A stretch of DNA of 36,392 nucleotides from Rhodospirillales bacterium (lineage in GTDB: Bacteria; Pseudomonadota; Alphaproteobacteria; ATCC43930; CGMCC-115725), in contig JAQGID010000427.1 of the NCBI GenBank assembly GCA_028291405.1, positions 1 to 36,392 of the forward strand, given 5' to 3'. The notes under the pieces are model-generated. The model did no database searches. It was not told the origin of the DNA and saw only the letters and a program-made list of their open reading frames with translations. The stretch's first letter is position 1. Every line of letters starts with the position of its first letter. Both the position numbers and the translations under genes were made by a program. This document shows positions 14,699-23,656 of this stretch, piece after piece.

Positions 14699-14758
14699 CT
14701 TACCGCAAACGCGGTGTGAAATCAGGGTGGATTTGCCTTGGCAGAAGCGCCGATTGAA

Positions 14759-14860
14759 GGCCCCGGCCGCGCCCGCAAGCGCGGCATCGGGGCCGCGCGG
14801 GATAGCGATATCCCGCAAGGCGGGAGTCTCGGCCGGCGGCGCGTTCCGCTGCCGGCCGAA
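14759..14860 (-). terminator. Three consecutive hairpins between the actin-like gene and psd
   Basis: Arms are 14759-14794 (GGCCCC...GGGGCC with inner GCCGCGC/GCGCGGC), 14797-14816 (GCGGGATA/TATCCCGC with a GCGA loop) and 14829-14860 (TCGGCCGGC/GCCGGCCGA, about 13 bp). The last begins 7 bp after the actin-like stop and probably ends that transcript, though no U run follows. The other two may protect or regulate the psd message. Confidence 0.5.
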
Positions 14861-14866
14861 ACCCGT

Positions 14867-15853
14867 TCACATGTTCAGCATCGCCGCGACGAGCGCGCCC
14901 TTGGCGGTGGTGTTGAGGACGTCCTTGGCGAGATAGGCCTTCGAGAATTTGACGGGCAGATCGGCGTTGCGCAGCGCATTCTCGAGCTCGGGCAGGAAGC
15001 CGCGCGCCATCGCCGTGCCGCCGGCGCAGACCAGCGGGATCGGGCTGGTGAAGCGCGGCAGCTTCTTGGTTTCCGCCATCGCTTCCTGAAGCGCCTTGAC
15101 GGCCGTCTCGATCACGTCGGTGTAGTAGATGGAGATGGCATGGTCGAGCGCGTTGCCGACGTTGCTGTCGAGACGGAAGGACTGCTCCTTGTGCAGCCGG
15201 GCAGTGGTCGGCGTCTCGCCGGTGACCGAGGCCGCGCTCTGGTCGATGTAGTCGCCGCTGCGGGTCGTCGCCAGCGTGAAGACTGGAAGGCCGAGGTAGG
15301 CGAGGCAGATGTTGCACATGCCGCCGCCGAAGCTCATCCCGATCCCGGTGAAATTCGTGTCGCGCAGCTCGGAGTAGACGATCGCCAGCCCTTCGTTGAC
15401 CGACTGCGCGGTATAGCCGAGCTCCTGGAAGATGTTGAGGACCGAGCGCTCGTGGAAGACGAGGTCGCTCTTGCGGTCCGCCGGCGCTGTGGGAATGCTG
15501 AAGCAGACCTTCTCGCCTTCGCGCGCCTCGCCGCAGAGATGCGTGATCAGCAGCTCGATCATCTCGAGGTTCTTGGGCTCCGCCGGGTTGAGGAGGCCGC
15601 GGGCCATCGGACGGCGCTCGTCGCCGTCGAGGAACTTGGCGAACTCGTCGGCGCGGTTGCCGTAAACGTAGAGATGCCGTTCGTCGACCGTGTGGAGGAT
15701 GCCCTCGCTCGCCAGCATCGTCTCGGTCATCTTCACCAGCGGCAGCTCGACGAATGCGTTGCGCTGCGCGGTGAAATTGACTTTCTCGCCGCTCATCGTG
15801 GCCAGCACGATCCGGCTCGTTCCCAGGTCCAGCCCCTTCAATTCGCCCGCCAT
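14867..15853 (-). CDS. Actin-like (ASKHA fold) ATPase of unknown function
   Basis: A 328-residue protein with the actin/Hsp70 nucleotide-fold layout. The phosphate-1 loop is GLDLGTSRI at 7-15. The phosphate-2 loop is GMSFGGGMCN at about 172-181, in which Ser174 stands where MreB, MamK and FtsA have Asp. The adenosine motif is CAGGTAMARGF at 276-286. Connecting motifs CFSIPTAPAD (117-126) and NEGLAIVYSE (153-162) match the family pattern. The length is close to MreB or MamK but I do not recognise it as either; it lacks signal or membrane segments. TAAGGAGAAATCGAC gives a strong ribosome site. The upstream gene on the same strand encodes a coiled-coil protein, which suggests a filament and a partner. 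Polymerisation is an inference. Confidence 0.82.
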   Translation of the reverse strand: MAGELKGLDLGTSRIVLATMSGEKVNFTAQRNAFVELPLVKMTETMLASEGILHTVDERHLYVYGNRADEFAKFLDGDERRPMARGLLNPAEPKNLEMIELLITHLCGEAREGEKVCFSIPTAPADRKSDLVFHERSVLNIFQELGYTAQSVNEGLAIVYSELRDTNFTGIGMSFGGGMCNICLAYLGLPVFTLATTRSGDYIDQSAASVTGETPTTARLHKEQSFRLDSNVGNALDHAISIYYTDVIETAVKALQEAMAETKKLPRFTSPIPLVCAGGTAMARGFLPELENALRNADLPVKFSKAYLAKDVLNTTAKGALVAAMLNM

Positions 15854-15949
15854 GTCGATTTCTCCTTAGATCTCTTGGATTTAGCGTTAGCGCCCGCAAT
15901 CACGCAGATCGCCGATGGATCCGCCGTACCGGCGCGTGCACCGAGCGTG

Positions 15950-15983
15950 GCAGTTGGAATCATCGCGTCGCAGTTAGGATCAT
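15950..15983. repeat. 14-bp direct repeat, 20 bp apart
   Basis: GCAGTTGGAATCAT (15950-15963) and GCAGTTAGGATCAT (15970-15983) differ at two positions and start exactly 20 bp apart, close to two helical turns. They lie between the coiled-coil and actin-like genes, and the second overlaps the coiled-coil stop codon. A dimeric DNA-binding protein site is plausible. Confidence 0.5.
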
Positions 15984-16699
15984 AAAAGCCCGAGCTTGTC
16001 GAGAACTCGCGGGATGAGGCCGCGCTTGCTCTTTCGCGGACTCATCGGCTCGCCGTAAGGGCTTGCGCCCGGTTTTTCCAGCTCCGCGGAGCCGTCCGCC
16101 GGTTGCTCTGCGCGGCGGATCAGCTCGAGCAGCCAGCCCGAGACATCGGCGTCGGCGCCTTCCGCGAGCATCTCGCGCCGCATCCGCTCGTCGCGGGCCT
16201 GGCGAGCCGCGCTGACGCCGACCGACGCGTCGCTGCGGCCGGCCGCGGTGGCCGCAGCCGCAGCAGCGGCGCGAGTCGCCGCGCTGCCCTTGCGCTCCAA
16301 CAGCTTGAGGACGGCGGCAAGGACCGGTCGCAACTCGTCCTCGATCGTATTGCGAACGTCGTCGCGCATCGCCTTTTGCTGCTGCAGACGATGCGAGATC
16401 TTCTCCATATGGGCGCGGTCGTCCTCGCGCGCCTGCCGCTCCCGCTCGACCATGTTGAGCAGCTCGACGATCCGTTCGTTGAGGAGATGGTTCTCGTCGA
16501 GCAGGCGCTGGAACTCGGTCTCGCGCAGGGTACGGACGTCGACCGGGGGGCCGCGGTGGCGCAGGTTATCGTCGAAGCCGGCGGCCGGCCCGATAGAAGC
16601 CGGCGCACTCCGCGGGCGCGTCGCGCTACGCCCCTGGGTCTCGCGCAGCGCGACGACAATCTCTTGAACCGTGGGATCGCGTCGGGTCTCGTTGACCAT
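15980..16699 (-). CDS. Coiled-coil protein with amphipathic basic C-terminus, partner candidate of the actin-like protein
   Basis: I do not recognise this 239-residue protein. Residues about 54-138 are a predicted long coiled coil rich in Glu, Arg, Leu and Gln (for example FQRLLDENHLLNERIVELLN, then ERERQAREDDRAHMEKISHR). Next come an Ala-rich stretch (140-153), a charged helix ending in DVSGWLLELIRRAEQ, a Pro/Ser linker and the tail PRKSKRGLIPRVLDKLGLL. That tail has a basic cluster followed by alternating hydrophobics and could bind membrane or a partner protein. The N-terminal 50 residues look disordered. The gene lies 126 bp upstream of the actin-like gene on the same strand. The function is unknown; a filament adaptor is an inference from context. 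Confidence 0.75.
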   Translation of the reverse strand: MVNETRRDPTVQEIVVALRETQGRSATRPRSAPASIGPAAGFDDNLRHRGPPVDVRTLRETEFQRLLDENHLLNERIVELLNMVERERQAREDDRAHMEKISHRLQQQKAMRDDVRNTIEDELRPVLAAVLKLLERKGSAATRAAAAAAATAAGRSDASVGVSAARQARDERMRREMLAEGADADVSGWLLELIRRAEQPADGSAELEKPGASPYGEPMSPRKSKRGLIPRVLDKLGLL

Positions 16700-16900
16700 C
16701 TCATCCCCGCAACCGATGGCGAATGCGCATCGGCCCTCTTCCTATCGCCGGACAGGCGCAGCCACCGCCATGTCTCAACTATCTATTGTTACATGGAACC
16801 ACCATATGATCAACAGCTGCCCGCTGAGGAAACCGGACCGCGTGTCGAAGAATCGCCGTGGCCGCAATGGGATTCGCAGCGCGCCCTGGCCGGGCGGGAT

Positions 16901-18994
16901 TCAGCGACCCTCGCGGCGCCAGGCGATGAGAAGGGTACTAAGGACGAGGATCAGCGCGGCGATCGCCGGCAGCAGCGGCGTCTCGCTCAGGCCGGTGACG
17001 ATGTAATCGCCGTTGGCGCGCAGCCCCAGCCAGTTGCGACCGCTGGCGCTGCGCTCGGGTGCGATGCGGCGGATGTCGGGGATCGCGCCGGGCCCGACCC
17101 AAAAGAATCCGCCACCGGTCGCCTGGACGACCGGCGCCAGCTTTTCTTCCGTGGTGCGAACGTCGGAAAGCTCCAGCGGGTTGAGCGCGCCGGCCGCGGC
17201 GAGGGCGGTGCGGGTCCCGTCGGTGATGCGGTAAAGCCCGCTCTCCTTGATCTCGATGCTCGCCGTGCTGCGGCCGCCGCCGGCATCGTTCAGCTTGATC
17301 TCCTGCATCACCCCGTCGGGGCCGGTGACGCGGACCGCACGGTCGTCGGGCTGCAGCGAGCGGCGGGTGATGACGAGGCGATTGCCCTGGACGACGCCGC
17401 GCAGATCGTTCTCCTCGAGATCCGGTTCCTTCATCAGCCAATAGGCAAGGCGGCGCAACAGCTCGGCCTGCGGTCCGCCGCCTTCGAAGCCGCGCGACCA
17501 GAGCCACATCTGATCCGAGAGGATCTGCGCGACGCGGCCCTCGCCGACGCGGTCGAGCACCAGCAGAGGCTGCCCGTCGATACCGCTCATTACCGTTGAG
17601 CCGCGCCTCGCCTCGGCCTCGACGTTGCGGAACCAGCGGCCCCATTGCGGCTGTTGGCCGGGATCGGCCGCATCGCCGGGCAGCTCGGCGGTGACGGGAT
17701 GGCGCTCGCCGAGATCGGTGACGCGCGGCTTGAAGCCTTCGCTGAGAATGCGGCCGGTCGGCTCAGCCGGCAGCACGGCGCCGAGCGGCGTGCGGTAGAG
17801 GCTGAACGGTGTCCCGAAATCCGGGCCGGCCGCCTCGAGCAGCGCGCCGCCCTTCTCGACGTAGCGGGCGACATTCTCGAGATAGGCTTGCGGCAGCACG
17901 CCGCGGCGGCGGTAACGGTCGAAGATAACGAGGTCGAACTCGTCGAGCTTGACGTCGAACAGCTCGCGAATCGGGAAGGCGATCAGCGACAGCTCGCGGA
18001 TCGGCGTGCCGTCCTGCTTTTCCGGCGGGCGAAGGATGGTGAAATGGACGAGGTCGACCGATGGATCCGACTTGAGGATGTTGCGCCATGTCCGCTCGCC
18101 GGGATGCGGCTCGCCCGAGACGAGCAGCACGCGCAGCCGGTCGCGAACGCCGTTGACGACGAGGGCGGCGCGGTTGTTGTCGAGCGTCAGCTCCTGCGGG
18201 CCGGGCTCCGCCTCCAACTCGACGATGTTCGGCCCGCCATGGTCGATCGGCACGGTGATGCGCTGGTCGCTGCCGACCGGCAAGCTGAGCTGGCTCGGCT
18301 GCCCACCGTCCTTGCGCAGCGTCACGCGGGCGCGCGTCCCCGGCGCGACCGGTTGGCCGAGATCCTCGACGCGCACCGTCAGCTCGACCTGCTTGCCGAC
18401 GAGGCCGAAGCTCGGCGCCTGTGCGACGACGAGGCGTCGATCGCCTTCGTTGGGCTTGCCCGAGAGCAGCACATGCAGCGGTGCGTCGAAGCTGAGGCGG
18501 TCGGGCGCCGGCACGTCGTGCACCTGGCCGTCGGTGATCATGATCGCGCCCGCGAGACGCTGGCGCGGTACGTCGGCGAGGGCACGGTTCAACGCCCCGA
18601 ACAGCTGCGTTCCGGTATCGGCGAGGGCGGCGCCGGTCTCCGGCTTGCCGGCGTGCACGATGCGGATGTCGAGATCCTTGAAACGCGCCAGCCGCTCGTT
18701 GACCGACGCCAGCGCCGCCTCGGTGTATTTCGTCCGGTCGCCGATGCGCTGGCTCGTCGAATCGTCGACGACGACTACTGCGACGTCGCGCTGCGGCTCG
18801 CGGTTCTGGACGACGAGCGATGGGTTGACCAGAATCGCGAGCAGGAAGGCGATCACGAGGAAGCGCCAGGCGACGCCGCGCGCCCGCCGCCAGACGCCGA
18901 ACCCCAGGATGAGGAGTGCCGCGACGCCGAAGCCGGTGATCGCCCACCACGCCAGCAGCGGCGCGGCGGCGATCGTATAGGCGGTTCCCATCAT
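16901..18994 (-). CDS. Large membrane protein of the MoxR operon (glutamine-amidotransferase-like / BatA-like)
   Basis: About 697 residues. Two hydrophobic helices lie at the N-terminus (APLLAWWAITGFGVAALLIL and WRFLVIAFLLAILV), followed by a von Willebrand-like region beginning VAVVVVDDSTSQRIGDRTKY. Ig-like strands come next, then a class-I-amidotransferase-like fold (VLLVSGEPHPGERTWRNIL, FDLVIFDRYRRRGVLP, YVEKGGALLEAAG) without an obvious catalytic Cys, and a last helix (LLPAIAALILVLSTLLIAW). The central domain is probably periplasmic. I chose ATG at 18994; TTG at 19000 is also in frame. It is the last gene of the operon, 25 bp after the DUF4159 gene. The 201 bp on its downstream side hold no gene I can support. 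Confidence 0.82.
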   Translation of the reverse strand: MMGTAYTIAAAPLLAWWAITGFGVAALLILGFGVWRRARGVAWRFLVIAFLLAILVNPSLVVQNREPQRDVAVVVVDDSTSQRIGDRTKYTEAALASVNERLARFKDLDIRIVHAGKPETGAALADTGTQLFGALNRALADVPRQRLAGAIMITDGQVHDVPAPDRLSFDAPLHVLLSGKPNEGDRRLVVAQAPSFGLVGKQVELTVRVEDLGQPVAPGTRARVTLRKDGGQPSQLSLPVGSDQRITVPIDHGGPNIVELEAEPGPQELTLDNNRAALVVNGVRDRLRVLLVSGEPHPGERTWRNILKSDPSVDLVHFTILRPPEKQDGTPIRELSLIAFPIRELFDVKLDEFDLVIFDRYRRRGVLPQAYLENVARYVEKGGALLEAAGPDFGTPFSLYRTPLGAVLPAEPTGRILSEGFKPRVTDLGERHPVTAELPGDAADPGQQPQWGRWFRNVEAEARRGSTVMSGIDGQPLLVLDRVGEGRVAQILSDQMWLWSRGFEGGGPQAELLRRLAYWLMKEPDLEENDLRGVVQGNRLVITRRSLQPDDRAVRVTGPDGVMQEIKLNDAGGGRSTASIEIKESGLYRITDGTRTALAAAGALNPLELSDVRTTEEKLAPVVQATGGGFFWVGPGAIPDIRRIAPERSASGRNWLGLRANGDYIVTGLSETPLLPAIAALILVLSTLLIAWRREGR

Positions 18995-19018
18995 TGCCAA
19001 AGTCTCATCGGTAGCGTC

Positions 19019-21730
19019 TCATTGGCCGAGCCGCTCCAGGATCGCCGGCACGTGCACCTGATCGGATTTGTAATTTCCGGTCAGCGTGTACATCACGAGA
19101 TTGACGCCGAAGCGATAGGCCATCTCGCGCTGCGGCTCGCCGCCGGGTACCACCGCATAGGCCGGGCGCCCCTGCGCATCGATCGCCCAGGCGCCGGCGT
19201 AGTCGTTGGAGCCGATGATGATCGTCGACACGCCGTCGTTGACGCGGTCCTCGGTCGGCTGCACCCATATCTGGCCGCCCGCCCAGCGGCCGGGAAACTC
19301 CTGCAGCAGGTAGAAGGATTTCGTCAGCACGTGATCGGGCGGCACCGGCTGGAGCGGCGGGATGTTGAGCCCGGCGGCTATCTGCCGCAGGCGCTGCGTG
19401 GCGCTGCCGGCGACCCGGCCGGTGCCGCCTTCGCCTTGGTCGCGGGTGTCGAAGAAGATCGTGCCGCCGGTGGCGAGATACCGGTTGAGCCGTTCGGTCG
19501 CGCGCGGCGACAGTGTCGGCTGGTCCGGCGTCACCGGCCAGTAGATGAGCGGAAAGAAGATCAGCTCGTCCTTTTCGGGATCCACCGCCATCGGCTCTCC
19601 GCTTTCGACCGCCGTGCGCCGGCCGAGCACGGCGGTCAGCCCGCGGAGCCCGGCAAGGCTCACCTGATCGACCTGCGGATCGCCCGTCTGGATATAGGCG
19701 AGCCGCAACTCCGAGCTCGCTTGCAGCGCAAAATCGTCGTCGTCGGCCCGTACCGCGGGGCTGGCAAGCGCGATCGCCGCGACCAACGCCGCCGTCGCGC
19801 CGCGTCGCGCCAGGCCGGGCAGCAGGCCGCGCAACGCATAGGCAATCAACAGATCGAGGAGAACCAGCGTCATGGCGGCGGCGAGAAGTCCCGGCCGCAG
19901 ATCGACTTCCGAGCCCCGGGTAAAGCTGTCGCGGGTGACTCCGGCCGGCAGCCGTCCGAGCGGTTTCAGGGTCGGGACGGCGCTCGCGAGGTTGAGGGCG
20001 TGGCGGGCGTCGAGTGTGCCGTAAAATCCGGGCGGCTGGCTCGCCGAGGCGACGGCGCTCGCGAAATCCTTGCCAGCGATCGACCGCGCGCTGGCCGGCG
20101 CCTGCTGCAGCCTGCCATAGCCGTCGAGCGTCTCGACCGGCGCCAGCGGCGCGTCGCCGGCGCCGGCAACGCCCTGGCTCAATCCGACGACACGGCGCAG
20201 CATGTCGACGAAGAGGCCGGACAACGCCAGGTTCGACCACGCCGGGCTGCCGGTCGTATGGACCAGGACTAGCCAGCCCTTGCCGCGCCGCTCGCCGGTC
20301 ACAAGCGGCGTTCCGTCGCTGAGCCGCGCCCAGGTCTTGTCGGCGAGATCGAGCGACGGCTCGGCGAGGACCTGTCGCAGCACCGTGACGTCGTCCGGGA
20401 TCGCGAGCCCGGCGAAGGGGCTATTCGGCGGGAAACTCGCCAGACGCGCCGGCTGCTCCCAGGAGAGCGCGCCGCCGATCGTGCGGCCGCCGCGCCGCAG
20501 CGTCACCGGCAGCAGATCGTCGCTGCTTTCGGCGAGGTCGGGGCCGGCAAAGCGCAGCAGCACGCCGCCGTCGTCGAGCCATTTGACCAGCGCGTCGTGC
20601 TCCTCGCGTCCCGAAGGGGCGGCATCGGCCAGCACCAGCATCGCCGTCTCGCGCTTCAGGAGGTCGCCGACCGTGCCACGCCGCACCTCGCTGAACGGGT
20701 TGAGCGCACGCTCGAGGTAGAAGGTGCCGGTGAGCAGCGGCTGGGGCGCCTCGCCGGGTTGCGTCGAGACGATGCCGACCGGCCGCCGGCGCCAGCGCTC
20801 GTCGAGCAGCAGCACCGCGCCGGCGGAGGCTTCGCCTTCGATCTCGGCGCGCGCCGCCTGGTTGCGCAGTTCGCCGGGCATCGGCAGCTTGATCTCTGCG
20901 TCACGTTGGCCGGCGGCGAGCGTCGTGCTCTGCCGCGTCAGCAGCCTGCCGTCGTCGCCGCTGACGCGGACCGCGATCTCGGCGGGTGCCTCGGCGCTCG
21001 GCCGATGTACCGCGACGGCGAGATCGGCGCCGTCCTGCTGCGCCGGGGCAATCAGCGTCGCGAGCCGGTCGGCCGGATCGCTGACGACGCGCAGCGTGCC
21101 GAGTCGATTCAGCCGCTCGGCGAAGCCGAAGGCGTCCTCGCTCTCCAGCCCGTCGCTGATCCAGACGACATTGGCGTTCGCCATCGTCAGCGCATCGAGC
21201 CGTGACAGCGCAGCGCTGCGGTTGGTCGGCCACGGCAATGGCGTCAACGCCTCGGCGGCGGCCCGCGCATCGCTGGCGCGCTGGATCGAGATCGCCGGCG
21301 CCGCCTCCCCGCCCGGCCGCGGGGCGGTGTCGAGCAGGACGACACGGCGGTTCTCGCGCTCGGCCTGGTCGATCAGCTCGCGCATCAGCCGCTGCCGCGC
21401 CGGCCAGTCGTGCGCCGCCGCCCAGCCGTCGTCGACGACGAGCAGCAGCGGCCCGTCGATCGCCAGCCGCGCGCTGGGGTTGAGCAGAGGATGCGCCAGC
21501 CCGATGATGGCGAGCGCGACGAGCAGCATGCGCAGCAGAATGAGCCACAGCGGCGTCCGCGCCGGCGTCTCCTCGCGGGGGACCAGCCCGAGCAGCAGGC
21601 GGATTGCCGGAAAGCGCAGCCGGCGCGGCGCCGGCGGCGTGACGCGCAGCAGCCACCACAGGACCGGCAGGATCGCGAGACCGGCGAGCAGCCAGGGCGA
21701 GGCGAAGGCGAGGGCGCCGAGCGACAGCAT
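19019..21730 (-). CDS. BatA-type N-terminus fused to DUF4159, membrane protein
   Basis: A 903-residue protein. It begins MLSLGALAFASPWLLAGLAI, the aerotolerance-regulator (BatA) opening, and has a second helix near 60-80 (LWLILLRMLLVALAIIGLAH). A von Willebrand-like domain follows (LLLVVDDGWAAAHDWPARQR) with Ser and the full metal site missing. Later there is a second membrane region around 640-690, then the DUF4159 domain over roughly the last 200 residues (FALQASSELRLAYIQTGD, FFDTRDQGEGG, GVNLVMYTLTGNYKSDQVHV). This fusion next to MoxR and DUF58 is seen in many alphaproteobacteria. I chose the ATG at 21730, four bases after the DUF58 stop; the upstream in-frame extension is not coding. Its precise role is unknown. 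Confidence 0.86.
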   Translation of the reverse strand: MLSLGALAFASPWLLAGLAILPVLWWLLRVTPPAPRRLRFPAIRLLLGLVPREETPARTPLWLILLRMLLVALAIIGLAHPLLNPSARLAIDGPLLLVVDDGWAAAHDWPARQRLMRELIDQAERENRRVVLLDTAPRPGGEAAPAISIQRASDARAAAEALTPLPWPTNRSAALSRLDALTMANANVVWISDGLESEDAFGFAERLNRLGTLRVVSDPADRLATLIAPAQQDGADLAVAVHRPSAEAPAEIAVRVSGDDGRLLTRQSTTLAAGQRDAEIKLPMPGELRNQAARAEIEGEASAGAVLLLDERWRRRPVGIVSTQPGEAPQPLLTGTFYLERALNPFSEVRRGTVGDLLKRETAMLVLADAAPSGREEHDALVKWLDDGGVLLRFAGPDLAESSDDLLPVTLRRGGRTIGGALSWEQPARLASFPPNSPFAGLAIPDDVTVLRQVLAEPSLDLADKTWARLSDGTPLVTGERRGKGWLVLVHTTGSPAWSNLALSGLFVDMLRRVVGLSQGVAGAGDAPLAPVETLDGYGRLQQAPASARSIAGKDFASAVASASQPPGFYGTLDARHALNLASAVPTLKPLGRLPAGVTRDSFTRGSEVDLRPGLLAAAMTLVLLDLLIAYALRGLLPGLARRGATAALVAAIALASPAVRADDDDFALQASSELRLAYIQTGDPQVDQVSLAGLRGLTAVLGRRTAVESGEPMAVDPEKDELIFFPLIYWPVTPDQPTLSPRATERLNRYLATGGTIFFDTRDQGEGGTGRVAGSATQRLRQIAAGLNIPPLQPVPPDHVLTKSFYLLQEFPGRWAGGQIWVQPTEDRVNDGVSTIIIGSNDYAGAWAIDAQGRPAYAVVPGGEPQREMAYRFGVNLVMYTLTGNYKSDQVHVPAILERLGQ

Positions 21731-21734
21731 TGGA

Positions 21735-22613
21735 TCAGCTCCCTGGCTGGCGCGACAGCGCCATGTAGAGCGCCAGCAGCGCGGCATGCGGCGGCCGATC
21801 GGTGCGATGCGTCGCGAAGCTCCAGCCGGCCGGCCGGGCGATCGCGACGAGACCTTCGCGATGCGCGGCAAGGCGCTCGACGTATTCGTCGCGCACCGTC
21901 TCGACGCGGCTGATCAACACGGAATCATCGCTCTCGATGCCCTCGAAGCGGACGCGGCCGTCGAACGGCAGCGTCTCCTCCGCGGGGTCGAGGATCTGCA
22001 GCATGTGACCCCGCAGGCCGGAGGCGGAATAGCGCCCGATCGCGGCGTGGATCTCGTCGAGCGGCGAGAGGAAGTCGCCGATGAGGACAAGCTGCGCATA
22101 GCGCGGCAGCGGCTCGAACCCGGGCAGGCTGGCGGCGGCGGTGTCCGCCGGCCGGTCGATCAGCGCGGCGATGCGGTTGAGCGCGACGCGGCCGCTGAGC
22201 GGCGGCAGGCCGGAGCCGATCAGGCTGGCGCGCTCGCCGCCGCGGACCAGCAGCGCGGCGAGCGCGACGAGCAGCAGATCGGCGCGTGCTCGCTTGGTCG
22301 GCAGCTGAGGGTCCGAATGGTAGTCCATCGACGGCGAGGCGTCGCGCCACAGCCAGATGCTCTGGGCCGCTTCCCATTCGGTCTCGCGGACGTAAAGCCG
22401 CTGCGATTTTGCGCTCTCCCGCCAGTCGATCCGCTGTGCCGCATCGCCGGGCTCGTATTGCCGGAATTGCCAGAACGAGTCGCCCTGGCCGACGCGACGT
22501 CTGCCGTGCACGCCCTGCGCCACCGTCGTCGCGACCCGGTCGGCGGCGACGAGCAGCGCCGGCAGTCTCGACGCGAGCTGCTCCGCCCGATGCTGGACGC
22601 TCGCCTGTGCCAC
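21735..22613 (-). CDS. DUF58 domain protein
   Basis: A 292-residue cytoplasmic protein of the DUF58 family, which has a von Willebrand-like fold and is almost always paired with MoxR ATPases. The family core is clear: FRQYEPGDAAQRIDWRESAK then SQRLYVRETEWE, followed by WLWRDASPSMDYH, a MIDAS-like DxSxS element. The protein lacks membrane helices. The start is GTG at 22613, 23 bp after the moxR stop. The stop is four bases before the next ATG, so the operon is tight. It probably bridges the AAA+ protein and the membrane-bound von Willebrand-like partners. Confidence 0.93.
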   Translation of the reverse strand: MAQASVQHRAEQLASRLPALLVAADRVATTVAQGVHGRRRVGQGDSFWQFRQYEPGDAAQRIDWRESAKSQRLYVRETEWEAAQSIWLWRDASPSMDYHSDPQLPTKRARADLLLVALAALLVRGGERASLIGSGLPPLSGRVALNRIAALIDRPADTAAASLPGFEPLPRYAQLVLIGDFLSPLDEIHAAIGRYSASGLRGHMLQILDPAEETLPFDGRVRFEGIESDDSVLISRVETVRDEYVERLAAHREGLVAIARPAGWSFATHRTDRPPHAALLALYMALSRQPGS

Positions 22614-22636
22614 GCGTCAGGTCCTGCCCGCGACGA

Positions 22637-23656
22637 TCAACGCAGCGGATCCGTCAGCCGGTCGATGACCTGCGTCAATGTGACGCCGTCGGCGCGCGCC
22701 GCGAAGTTGAGCGCCATGCGATGACGCAGCACCGGGGCGGCAAGGGCGAGCACGTCATCGACTGATGGCGAGAGCCGGTTGTCGAGCAGGGCGCGGGCGC
22801 GGCAGGCGAGCATCAGCGCCTGGCTGGCGCGCGGTCCGGGTCCCCAGGCGATGTGGCGCTGCGCCTCGGGGATGGTGCTCTCCTCGGGGCGGCCGGAGCG
22901 CACGAGCGAGAGGATCGCCTCGACGACACTCTCGCCGACCGGCACGCGGCGAACGAGGCGCTGCGCCTGCGCCAGTTCGCCGGCGGTCATCACCGGCGCC
23001 GCCTTCTCCGCCGCGGCGCCGGTCGTCGCGATCAGCATGCGCCGCTCGGAATCGAGATCGGGGTAGCCGACGTCGATCTGCAACAGAAACCGGTCGAGTT
23101 GCGCCTCGGGCAACGGATAGGTGCCTTCCTGCTCCAGCGGGTTCTGCGTCGCCAGCACGTGGAACGGCTTCGGCAGTTGATGGTACTGGCCGGCGACCGA
23201 GACGCGGCCCTCCTGCATCGCCTGCAGCAGCGCCGATTGGGTGCGCGGGCTGGCACGGTTGATCTCGTCGGCCATCAGCAGTTGGCAGAAGACCGGGCCG
23301 GGGATGAAGCGGAACGACCGCCGTCCGCTCTCGGCCTCCTCCAGCACCTCCGAGCCGACGATGTCCGCCGGCATCAGGTCCGGTGTGCATTGGATGCGCT
23401 TGTCCTCGAGGCCGAGAATCGTGCCCAGCGTCTCGACCAGCCGGGTCTTGGCCAGGCCGGGGACGCCGATCAGCAGACCGTGGCCGCCGGCGAGCAAGGT
23501 GATCAACGCTTGATCGACGACCTCGCGCTGACCGAAGATGATGCGGCCGATGCGCTCACGGACGAGGGCGAGGCGGGCGCCGAGGGCGTCGACCTCGGCG
23601 AGGAGTTGGCCGGAATCGTCCGGCGATGCAGCGAGATTCTCGGTATTCGCAGTCAC
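22637..23656 (-). CDS. moxR: MoxR-family AAA+ ATPase
   Basis: A 339-residue AAA+ ATPase that is thought to act as a chaperone in maturation of metal-binding or von Willebrand-domain complexes. Walker A GVPGLAKT is at 64-71 and Walker B LLMADEINR at about 127-135. They are followed by SPRTQSALLQAMQEG, the sensor-1 Asn in ATQNPLEQEGTYPLPEAQLDR, and the sensor-2 arginine region GPGPRASQAL. The start is GTG at 23656 with GAAGGGA about ten bases upstream. It is the first gene of a four-gene operon (moxR, DUF58, DUF4159 protein, membrane protein) and lies only 30 bp from the divergent DUF1285 gene, so the two share their promoter region. Confidence 0.96.
   Translation of the reverse strand: MTANTENLAASPDDSGQLLAEVDALGARLALVRERIGRIIFGQREVVDQALITLLAGGHGLLIGVPGLAKTRLVETLGTILGLEDKRIQCTPDLMPADIVGSEVLEEAESGRRSFRFIPGPVFCQLLMADEINRASPRTQSALLQAMQEGRVSVAGQYHQLPKPFHVLATQNPLEQEGTYPLPEAQLDRFLLQIDVGYPDLDSERRMLIATTGAAAEKAAPVMTAGELAQAQRLVRRVPVGESVVEAILSLVRSGRPEESTIPEAQRHIAWGPGPRASQALMLACRARALLDNRLSPSVDDVLALAAPVLRHRMALNFAARADGVTLTQVIDRLTDPLR

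Follow-up and report, generated by a model that had tools for sequence, protein, structure and literature searches.

The question raised by contig JAQGID010000427.1 of a Rhodospirillales bacterium (assembly GCA_028291405.1) is which actin it encodes, and whether the coiled-coil protein encoded just before it is a dedicated partner. We analysed 36,392 nucleotides of this contig (positions 1 to 36,392 of the forward strand; hereafter the window), in which the partner gene comes first and the actin gene follows on the same strand after 126 bases. A preliminary description made from the sequence alone had presented the two as a candidate unnamed filament system; both open reading frames (ORFs) lie where it placed them and the motifs it quoted are present. 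We find that the actin belongs to the Pfam family Volactin (PF25216), with serine in place of an aspartate on which other actins rely, and that the coiled-coil protein accompanies it throughout its clade. The pair is laid out as follows.

15980..16699, minus strand: coiled-coil partner protein, 239 aa, of no known family, with a homologue upstream of the actin in 7/7 loci

15862..15867, minus strand: AAGGAG, likely ribosome-binding site of the actin gene, from the sequence before the actin ATG

14867..15853, minus strand: actin-like ATPase, 328 aa, PF25216 (volactin/Mad28 family), from Pfam, the AlphaFold2 fold and structural matches

The actin matches PF25216 along nearly the whole profile (from position 3 to 321 of 321), at E 5.4e-72 and with 243.4 bits against a cut-off of 35. 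This was its sole match in Pfam at E up to 1, MreB (PF06723) remaining unmatched. Under the same limit its sole match in NCBIfam was MamK (NF040964), at 31.3 bits and below the cut-off of 400; the MamK of a Candidatus Magnetobacterium casense locus (L101) scores 505.3 bits and served as the positive control for that model. None of the FtsA, ParM/StbA and salactin models of the two collections matched, nor did the BeeR model of NCBIfam (NF053558, cut-off 530 bits). These family models bear out the earlier view that the protein is not MreB, FtsA, ParM or MamK, and no kinase family in Pfam or NCBIfam matched it, kinase orthology having been one alternative raised at the time. AlphaFold2, run on a 45-row alignment, likewise predicts an actin fold with confidence (mean pLDDT 92.9, pTM 0.91). 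The nearest solved structures are MamK (5ljv, Z 29.1, rmsd 2.9, 295 aligned), BeeR (8r2n, 28.7) and MreB (27.1), a ranking from which families that are missing are not thereby excluded. The host has an ordinary MreB elsewhere in its genome (507.7 bits, contig C237), and the window protein is therefore a second actin.

The family is one with published members. Besides volactin of Haloferax volcanii (VolA, HVO_2015), we find a PF25216 gene in the magnetosome cluster of L101, where it scores 272.8 bits and lies divergent to mamK with one ORF between them; MamK and, at 328.6 bits, MamP mark the cluster, both above their cut-offs. The encoded protein is 39% identical to the window actin and, judged by place, family and motif rather than by annotation, is Mad28. 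On this sequence evidence the window actin is not unnamed: its family is PF25216, which holds volactin and, judged from the L101 cluster, Mad28. Both are published filament formers, so that of the "unnamed filament system" only the partner still lacks a name. We found no paper naming volactin and Mad28 together in the open-access literature searched, where their union in a single family seems not to have been published.

The nucleotide-binding motifs of the actin were compared across 167 aligned family rows (83 genome, 82 viral and 2 haloarchaeal). Two genome rows are duplicates (L037 and L038, of L042 and L039), kept among the rows and dropped from locus counts, and two further pairs of actin rows are identical (L100/L103 and L111/L113).

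15812..15835, minus strand: phosphate-1 motif GLDLGTSR, residues 7-14, with D9, G11 and T12 in 167/167 rows

15311..15340, minus strand: phosphate-2 hairpin GMSFGGGMCN, residues 172-181, aligned to MamK IIVDIGAGTTD

15332-15334, minus strand: S174, replacing the aspartate of other actins, from the alignment to MamK

14996..15028, minus strand: adenosine motif CAGGTAMARGF, residues 276-286, with G278 and G279 in 167/167 rows

Position 174 is serine in 166 of the 167 rows and threonine in the other (82/83 genome rows, with the one T; 82/82 viral; 2/2 haloarchaeal). The loci were searched for with patterns, one of which contains the phosphate-2 serine; among the 137 rows outside that pattern the count is 136 S and 1 T (57/58 genome rows, T in the other; 79/79 viral). 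All 167 rows retain the glutamate that corresponds to E143 of MamK. The MamK mutant D161A loses its filament dynamics, and changes at D161 or E143 are described as putting an end to ATPase activity in actins (PMC5059902). The serine of Mad28 at the MamK aspartate position has already been published (PMC10653835). The likely consequence of the replacement, as far as sequence can tell, is slow or altered hydrolysis.

The preliminary description had thought a filament with an adaptor plausible because other bacterial actins (ParM/ParR, MamK/MamJ) have dedicated partners, and within the clade of the window actin the dedicated partner stands. Besides the window actin, this clade includes 6 relatives from the best 80 named ones (support 100/99, in a tree of 60 rows that are a chosen subset, with the MamK of L101 as the only outgroup), and a partner homologue lies directly upstream of the actin, on the same strand, in 7/7 of its loci. 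The neighbourhoods compared are those of 160 loci, the best 80 in each of two sets: 349 genome relatives and at least 569 viral relatives. The gaps between partner and actin genes are 126, 60, 85, 33, -4, 28 and 153 bases (with start codons as chosen here), the -4 being an ATGA overlap of 4 bases at L041; among the other 6 loci a GGAG stretch precedes the actin in the 5 that have a gap. G001, a genome from the same genus, carries the actin twice, and each copy is immediately preceded by a homologous coiled-coil protein. When the ORFs around the 7 pairs were compared by blastp, the partner was the sole neighbour found in more than 2 loci. A tblastn search with 27 window ORFs against 13 alphaproteobacterial loci (E 1e-8) found the actin and the partner alone; it missed the partner in 3/6 other loci, so diverged neighbours could escape it, and the blastp comparison is the more sensitive. 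Recurring in 7/7 loci, the pair is by this sequence record not a chance arrangement, and the coiled-coil protein is a conserved, dedicated partner in this clade. A promoter scan of positions 14700-16950 returned zero sites, and the terminator-like matches were uninformative.

The distribution of the two genes across whole genomes points the same way. Among 61 relatives, actin and partner are both present in the same 2 genomes and neither was found in the other 59; 41/61 of these genomes are at least 90% complete, and the partner search scored up to 43 candidates in each. Draws of 385 genomes of the class yielded 1 with volactin over its cut-off and 3 that the partner profile matched, one of them the window's own. 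The other two matches were weak (E 9.4e-5 and 2.3e-4, with 6 candidates per genome scored) and cover the coiled-coil core. They are small alphaproteobacterial coiled-coil proteins like the partner core (L202:1480-1851 and L203:1372-1935), with the N-terminal helix missing by eye and unrelated genes around them. In the actin search that covered the 61 relatives, a further 31 genomes gave PF25216 matches below the cut-off and were not counted as family. Nine more volactin-bearing genomes were searched whole: 4 have the partner, with their actin inside the clade, and in 5 outside it the partner was not found. These 5 belong to a sister, Hyphomicrobiales-type clade, so the partner was either gained with the clade or lost by its sister.

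The partner itself gave nothing over cut-off in Pfam or NCBIfam and zero PHROGs matches. Its AlphaFold2 model, built from 7 sequences, is less certain (overall pLDDT 72.0, pTM 0.33) and places helices at residues 11-24, 55-153 (with a block of pLDDT above 90 at about 61-130), 160-198 and 228-235. In outline, the model has a short N-terminal helix, a loose linker, a helix some 100 residues long and, behind it, weaker helices. Three parts of the protein matter below.

16628..16678, minus strand: N-terminal conserved helix, residues 8-24, DPTVQEIVVALRETQGR, conserved in 7 partners, helix 11-24 modelled

16241..16537, minus strand: long helix or coiled coil, residues 55-153, from AlphaFold2, with conserved blocks within 55-84 and 113-136

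15983..16042, minus strand: C-terminal basic amphipathic tail, residues 220-239, lineage-specific, with a related tail in 3/7 partners

The seven partners are 27-64% identical in pairwise comparison. Conservation falls on residues 8-24 (consensus E-P-S/T-V-x-E-I-V-V-A-L-R) and on two blocks in the long helix, L-R-x-x-E-x-x-R-L-L-x-E-N-x-R-L-N-x-R at 58-76 and E-L-R-P-V-L-x-x-L-L-x-x-L-E at 122-135. The basic tail, which the preliminary description had thought could touch the membrane, does not follow this pattern: a related form occurs in 3/7 partners, and 4/7 end before it. We therefore rejected it as a general membrane anchor; by sequence, membrane contact through the tail would be at most a lineage trait. 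By eye, short basic C-terminal tails like it also end two haloarchaeal DUF7139 membrane proteins (L033:6974-7897 and L034:6872-7825).

What lies beside the actin differs between branches of PF25216. A protein with an Amidase_2 domain adjoins it in 39/41 loci of three clades from Acidobacteria and Desulfobacterota: in 18/20 Bryobacterales-type loci (17 upstream, 1 downstream), upstream in 7/7 Blastocatellia-type loci and downstream in 14/14 desulfobacterotal ones. Three queries from different clades, all three Amidase_2 by Pfam, each found the same 39/41 loci; the acidobacterial neighbour has, by eye, a hydrophobic stretch. A PBP1A-like enzyme (Transgly and Transpeptidase) is encoded downstream in 10/17 Nitrospirota and deltaproteobacterial loci, adjoining the actin in 4 and at a distance of over 3 kb in 6, as counted with one query. 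A PBP1A-like protein directly downstream of the actin at L089:5764-7983 has an extra N-terminal stretch, receiver-domain-like by eye, before the transglycosylase domain. Elsewhere, in a clade including Omnitrophota, Elusimicrobia, Scalindua and Patescibacteria, GvpL/GvpF genes occur in 9/10 loci, 8/9 of them within about 2.3 kb of the actin, and one locus also has a Gas_vesicle gene. The GvpL/GvpF-bearing loci are L081, L092, L097, L098, L100, L103, L106, L107 and L113, with one of the genes 8.3 kb away. A weak winged-helix protein (E 0.031, below cut-off) is encoded less than 500 bases upstream of the actin in 8/10 loci of this clade. The PF25216 protein of the GvpL/GvpF loci is thus a candidate gas-vesicle actin; we found no paper linking gas vesicles with actin-like proteins by title or abstract start in the open-access literature searched.

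Viral contigs commonly carry volactin-family actins (at least 569 relatives), including two phage records of 595 and 485 kb (L035 and L036). In phage loci L119-L198, a small protein with a membrane-type start by eye is encoded within 100 bases upstream of the actin in 45/80; clade clustering on 24 of the 80 viral loci gave 18/24, against 16 of the same 24 with one query. All queries for such neighbour counts were representatives drawn from the loci they count. Two phage loci tested further carry SSB, dUTPase, DnaB-type helicase, clamp-loader or rIIA genes, and four phage actins tested against PHROGs matched none of its families. Two haloarchaeal loci (L033 and L034) have a DUF7139 membrane protein upstream. 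Fused rather than neighbouring, N-terminal extensions of about 85-102 residues precede the actin in L101:9731-10975, L091, L096, L099 and L117, coiled-coil-like and proline-rich by eye; L117 has two tandem actin paralogues.

It is tempting to read this variety as one pattern. PF25216 could be a single widespread prokaryotic and phage actin, with serine for the phosphate-2 aspartate, that serves as an interchangeable filament core to which each lineage adds an adaptor or effector next door; the window pair would be its free-standing minimal version. The additions would be the coiled-coil protein, the amidase, the PBP1A-like enzyme, gas-vesicle genes with the winged-helix-like protein, magnetosome genes, the DUF7139 protein or the small phage protein. 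We give this reading an even chance; it is the more interesting one, and it has been surveyed in part.

For the window pair itself, the reading we think fairly probable is a two-gene filament-plus-adaptor module with slow turnover and a probable role at the cell envelope. The actin would bind ATP in the usual cleft and polymerise. Because the phosphate-2 aspartate is serine, hydrolysis would be expected to be slow or different, leaving filaments that are fairly stable and depend on other factors to turn over. We infer that the partner binds these filaments: it would dimerise through its coiled coil, grip the filament with the conserved N-terminal helix, and cross-link filaments into bundles or tie them to cargo or to the inner envelope. 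The job of the module would be spatial organisation at the cell envelope, of shape or curvature, alongside the ordinary MreB. The envelope role is the weakest step; it probably holds by analogy within the family (the amidase, the PBP1A-like enzyme, haloarchaeal shape and the placement of Mad28 at cell curvature) and does not come from the genes beside the window pair.

Several observations weigh against this module. Apart from L043 and L048, whose shared surroundings (35 ORF matches) make them one genomic place, the flanks of the 7 loci are unrelated in what was compared, with no conserved cargo or enzyme. The partner was not found in 5/11 volactin-bearing alphaproteobacterial genomes searched whole, so co-occurrence stops short of the class and the actin can exist without the partner; these searches scored part of the first-look candidates, and a diverged copy could be missed. 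Shared ancestry would by itself also lead to a mirror-tree correlation like the one seen here (r 0.77, reached in 25 of 5040 permutations). The tail missing from four partners belongs here too. Finally, slow turnover is uncertain: the serine is shared by haloarchaeal relatives of volactin, itself reported as dynamic in cells.

That last observation also bears on whether the protein is a filament at all. It might be a non-polymerising actin-fold ATPase, regulatory or chaperone-like, bound by a coiled-coil protein, and the lost phosphate-2 aspartate would suit this, given what the MamK mutants are described as losing (PMC5059902). Dynamic volactin in cells weakens the notion of a dead enzyme, however, and two relatives are reported to polymerise: Mad28, with the same serine, makes filaments inside cells and, given ATP-gamma-S, also in vitro (PMC10653835), and volactin forms dynamic filaments in cells (PMC10869688). 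We regard the non-polymerising ATPase as improbable. The main rival is a track for positioning an organelle or other cargo, in which the filament would place an intracellular body, as Mad28 and MamK do and as the gas-vesicle relatives perhaps do, with the partner as cargo adaptor. The L101 gene within a magnetosome cluster with MamK and MamP argues for it, as do the GvpL/GvpF genes of another clade, 8/9 of them close to the actin. Against it, a Pfam search of a few genes at each of the 7 loci showed no organelle gene, and a MamK search at E 1e-60 gave zero matches in this genome and in 240 genomes of the class; its controls went unmatched too, so it shows little. For the window pair we consider such a track unlikely, if still to be reckoned with.

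An operon-like pair of an actin and a small adaptor also recalls a ParM/ParR-like cassette, in which the upstream protein would bind a centromere and the actin push DNA apart. The only plasmid records matched by the family were four from haloarchaea, with relatives 33.5-36.3% identical to the window actin. These are large plasmids, which would favour segregation; the two examined carry the DUF7139 membrane protein upstream, which is not a known DNA binder. The window partner shows no DNA-binding domain over the Pfam cut-off and is modelled, at low pTM, as a single long helix with a short N-terminal one, a fold search not having been made; neither a ParM nor a StbA model matches the actin, though no search for centromere repeats or plasmid genes was made. 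We think DNA segregation very improbable here, and return to the envelope module as the preferred reading.

Genes further out on the window do not add to it. Psd (PF02666) and PssA (PF01066) genes lie downstream of the actin, as the preliminary description had noted in pointing to phospholipids. That they follow the actin here holds; neither was found beside the other pairs in the 27-ORF tblastn, and a link to phosphatidylserine synthesis is for that reason unsupported. PssA and PssD are named in the Haloferax shape paper (PMC10869688), which we take as coincidence. The strand of the pair also carries, upstream of it at 16901-23656, an ORF without a Pfam match and then BatA/DUF4159, DUF58 and MoxR-type AAA genes. 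At L041:11165-16877, glucosaminidase, DotU and IcmF genes of type VI secretion follow the partner-actin pair; we set this link aside, as it was seen in 1/7 loci. L040 and L042 each have a family III CoA-transferase gene close to the pair, in differing places and orientations, and we took it for a member of a common gene family.

If the family reading is true, volactin, Mad28, the gas-vesicle-cluster actin and the phage actin are one family, and results in one predict others. The family also raises a question of enzymology, namely how filament turnover works in actins that have serine where MamK and others need an aspartate. The window pair, being two small proteins that laboratory E. coli could express jointly, is a convenient minimal test case.

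How far do known systems resemble it? Volactin is alike in belonging to PF25216 over its full length, as the window actin does, and two haloarchaeal relatives (L033 and L034) share both the phosphate-2 serine and a conserved protein directly upstream. It differs in being archaeal, and the upstream DUF7139 protein is of a family that the window partner does not match. A shape role is shown only in volactin, a lowered level of which delays disk formation (PMC10869688). This comparison rests on the haloarchaeal relatives, the H. volcanii genome having been matched as a control in our searches. Mad28 shares the family and the change of phosphate-2 aspartate to serine, and it acts with coiled-coil proteins: in a system that includes coiled-coil Mad proteins, it is reported to be needed to hold magnetosome chains at positive cell curvature (PMC12748827; PMC12713370). 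Unlike the window actin, the L101 protein has a 90-residue N-terminal extension, and the window neighbours tested in Pfam showed no magnetosome family.

MamK, with MamJ, McaA and McaB, offers the closest solved fold (21% identity) and the same plan of an actin with dedicated adaptors; it differs in that the window actin falls far short of the MamK cut-off and has replaced its phosphate-2 aspartate. BeeR, a Verrucomicrobiota actin that forms a three-stranded tube, is the second-best structural match and another actin from outside magnetosomes, yet it is only 17% identical to the window actin. It is described as having conserved binding and hydrolysis residues and an N-terminal extension of 30-50 aa (PMC11929497).

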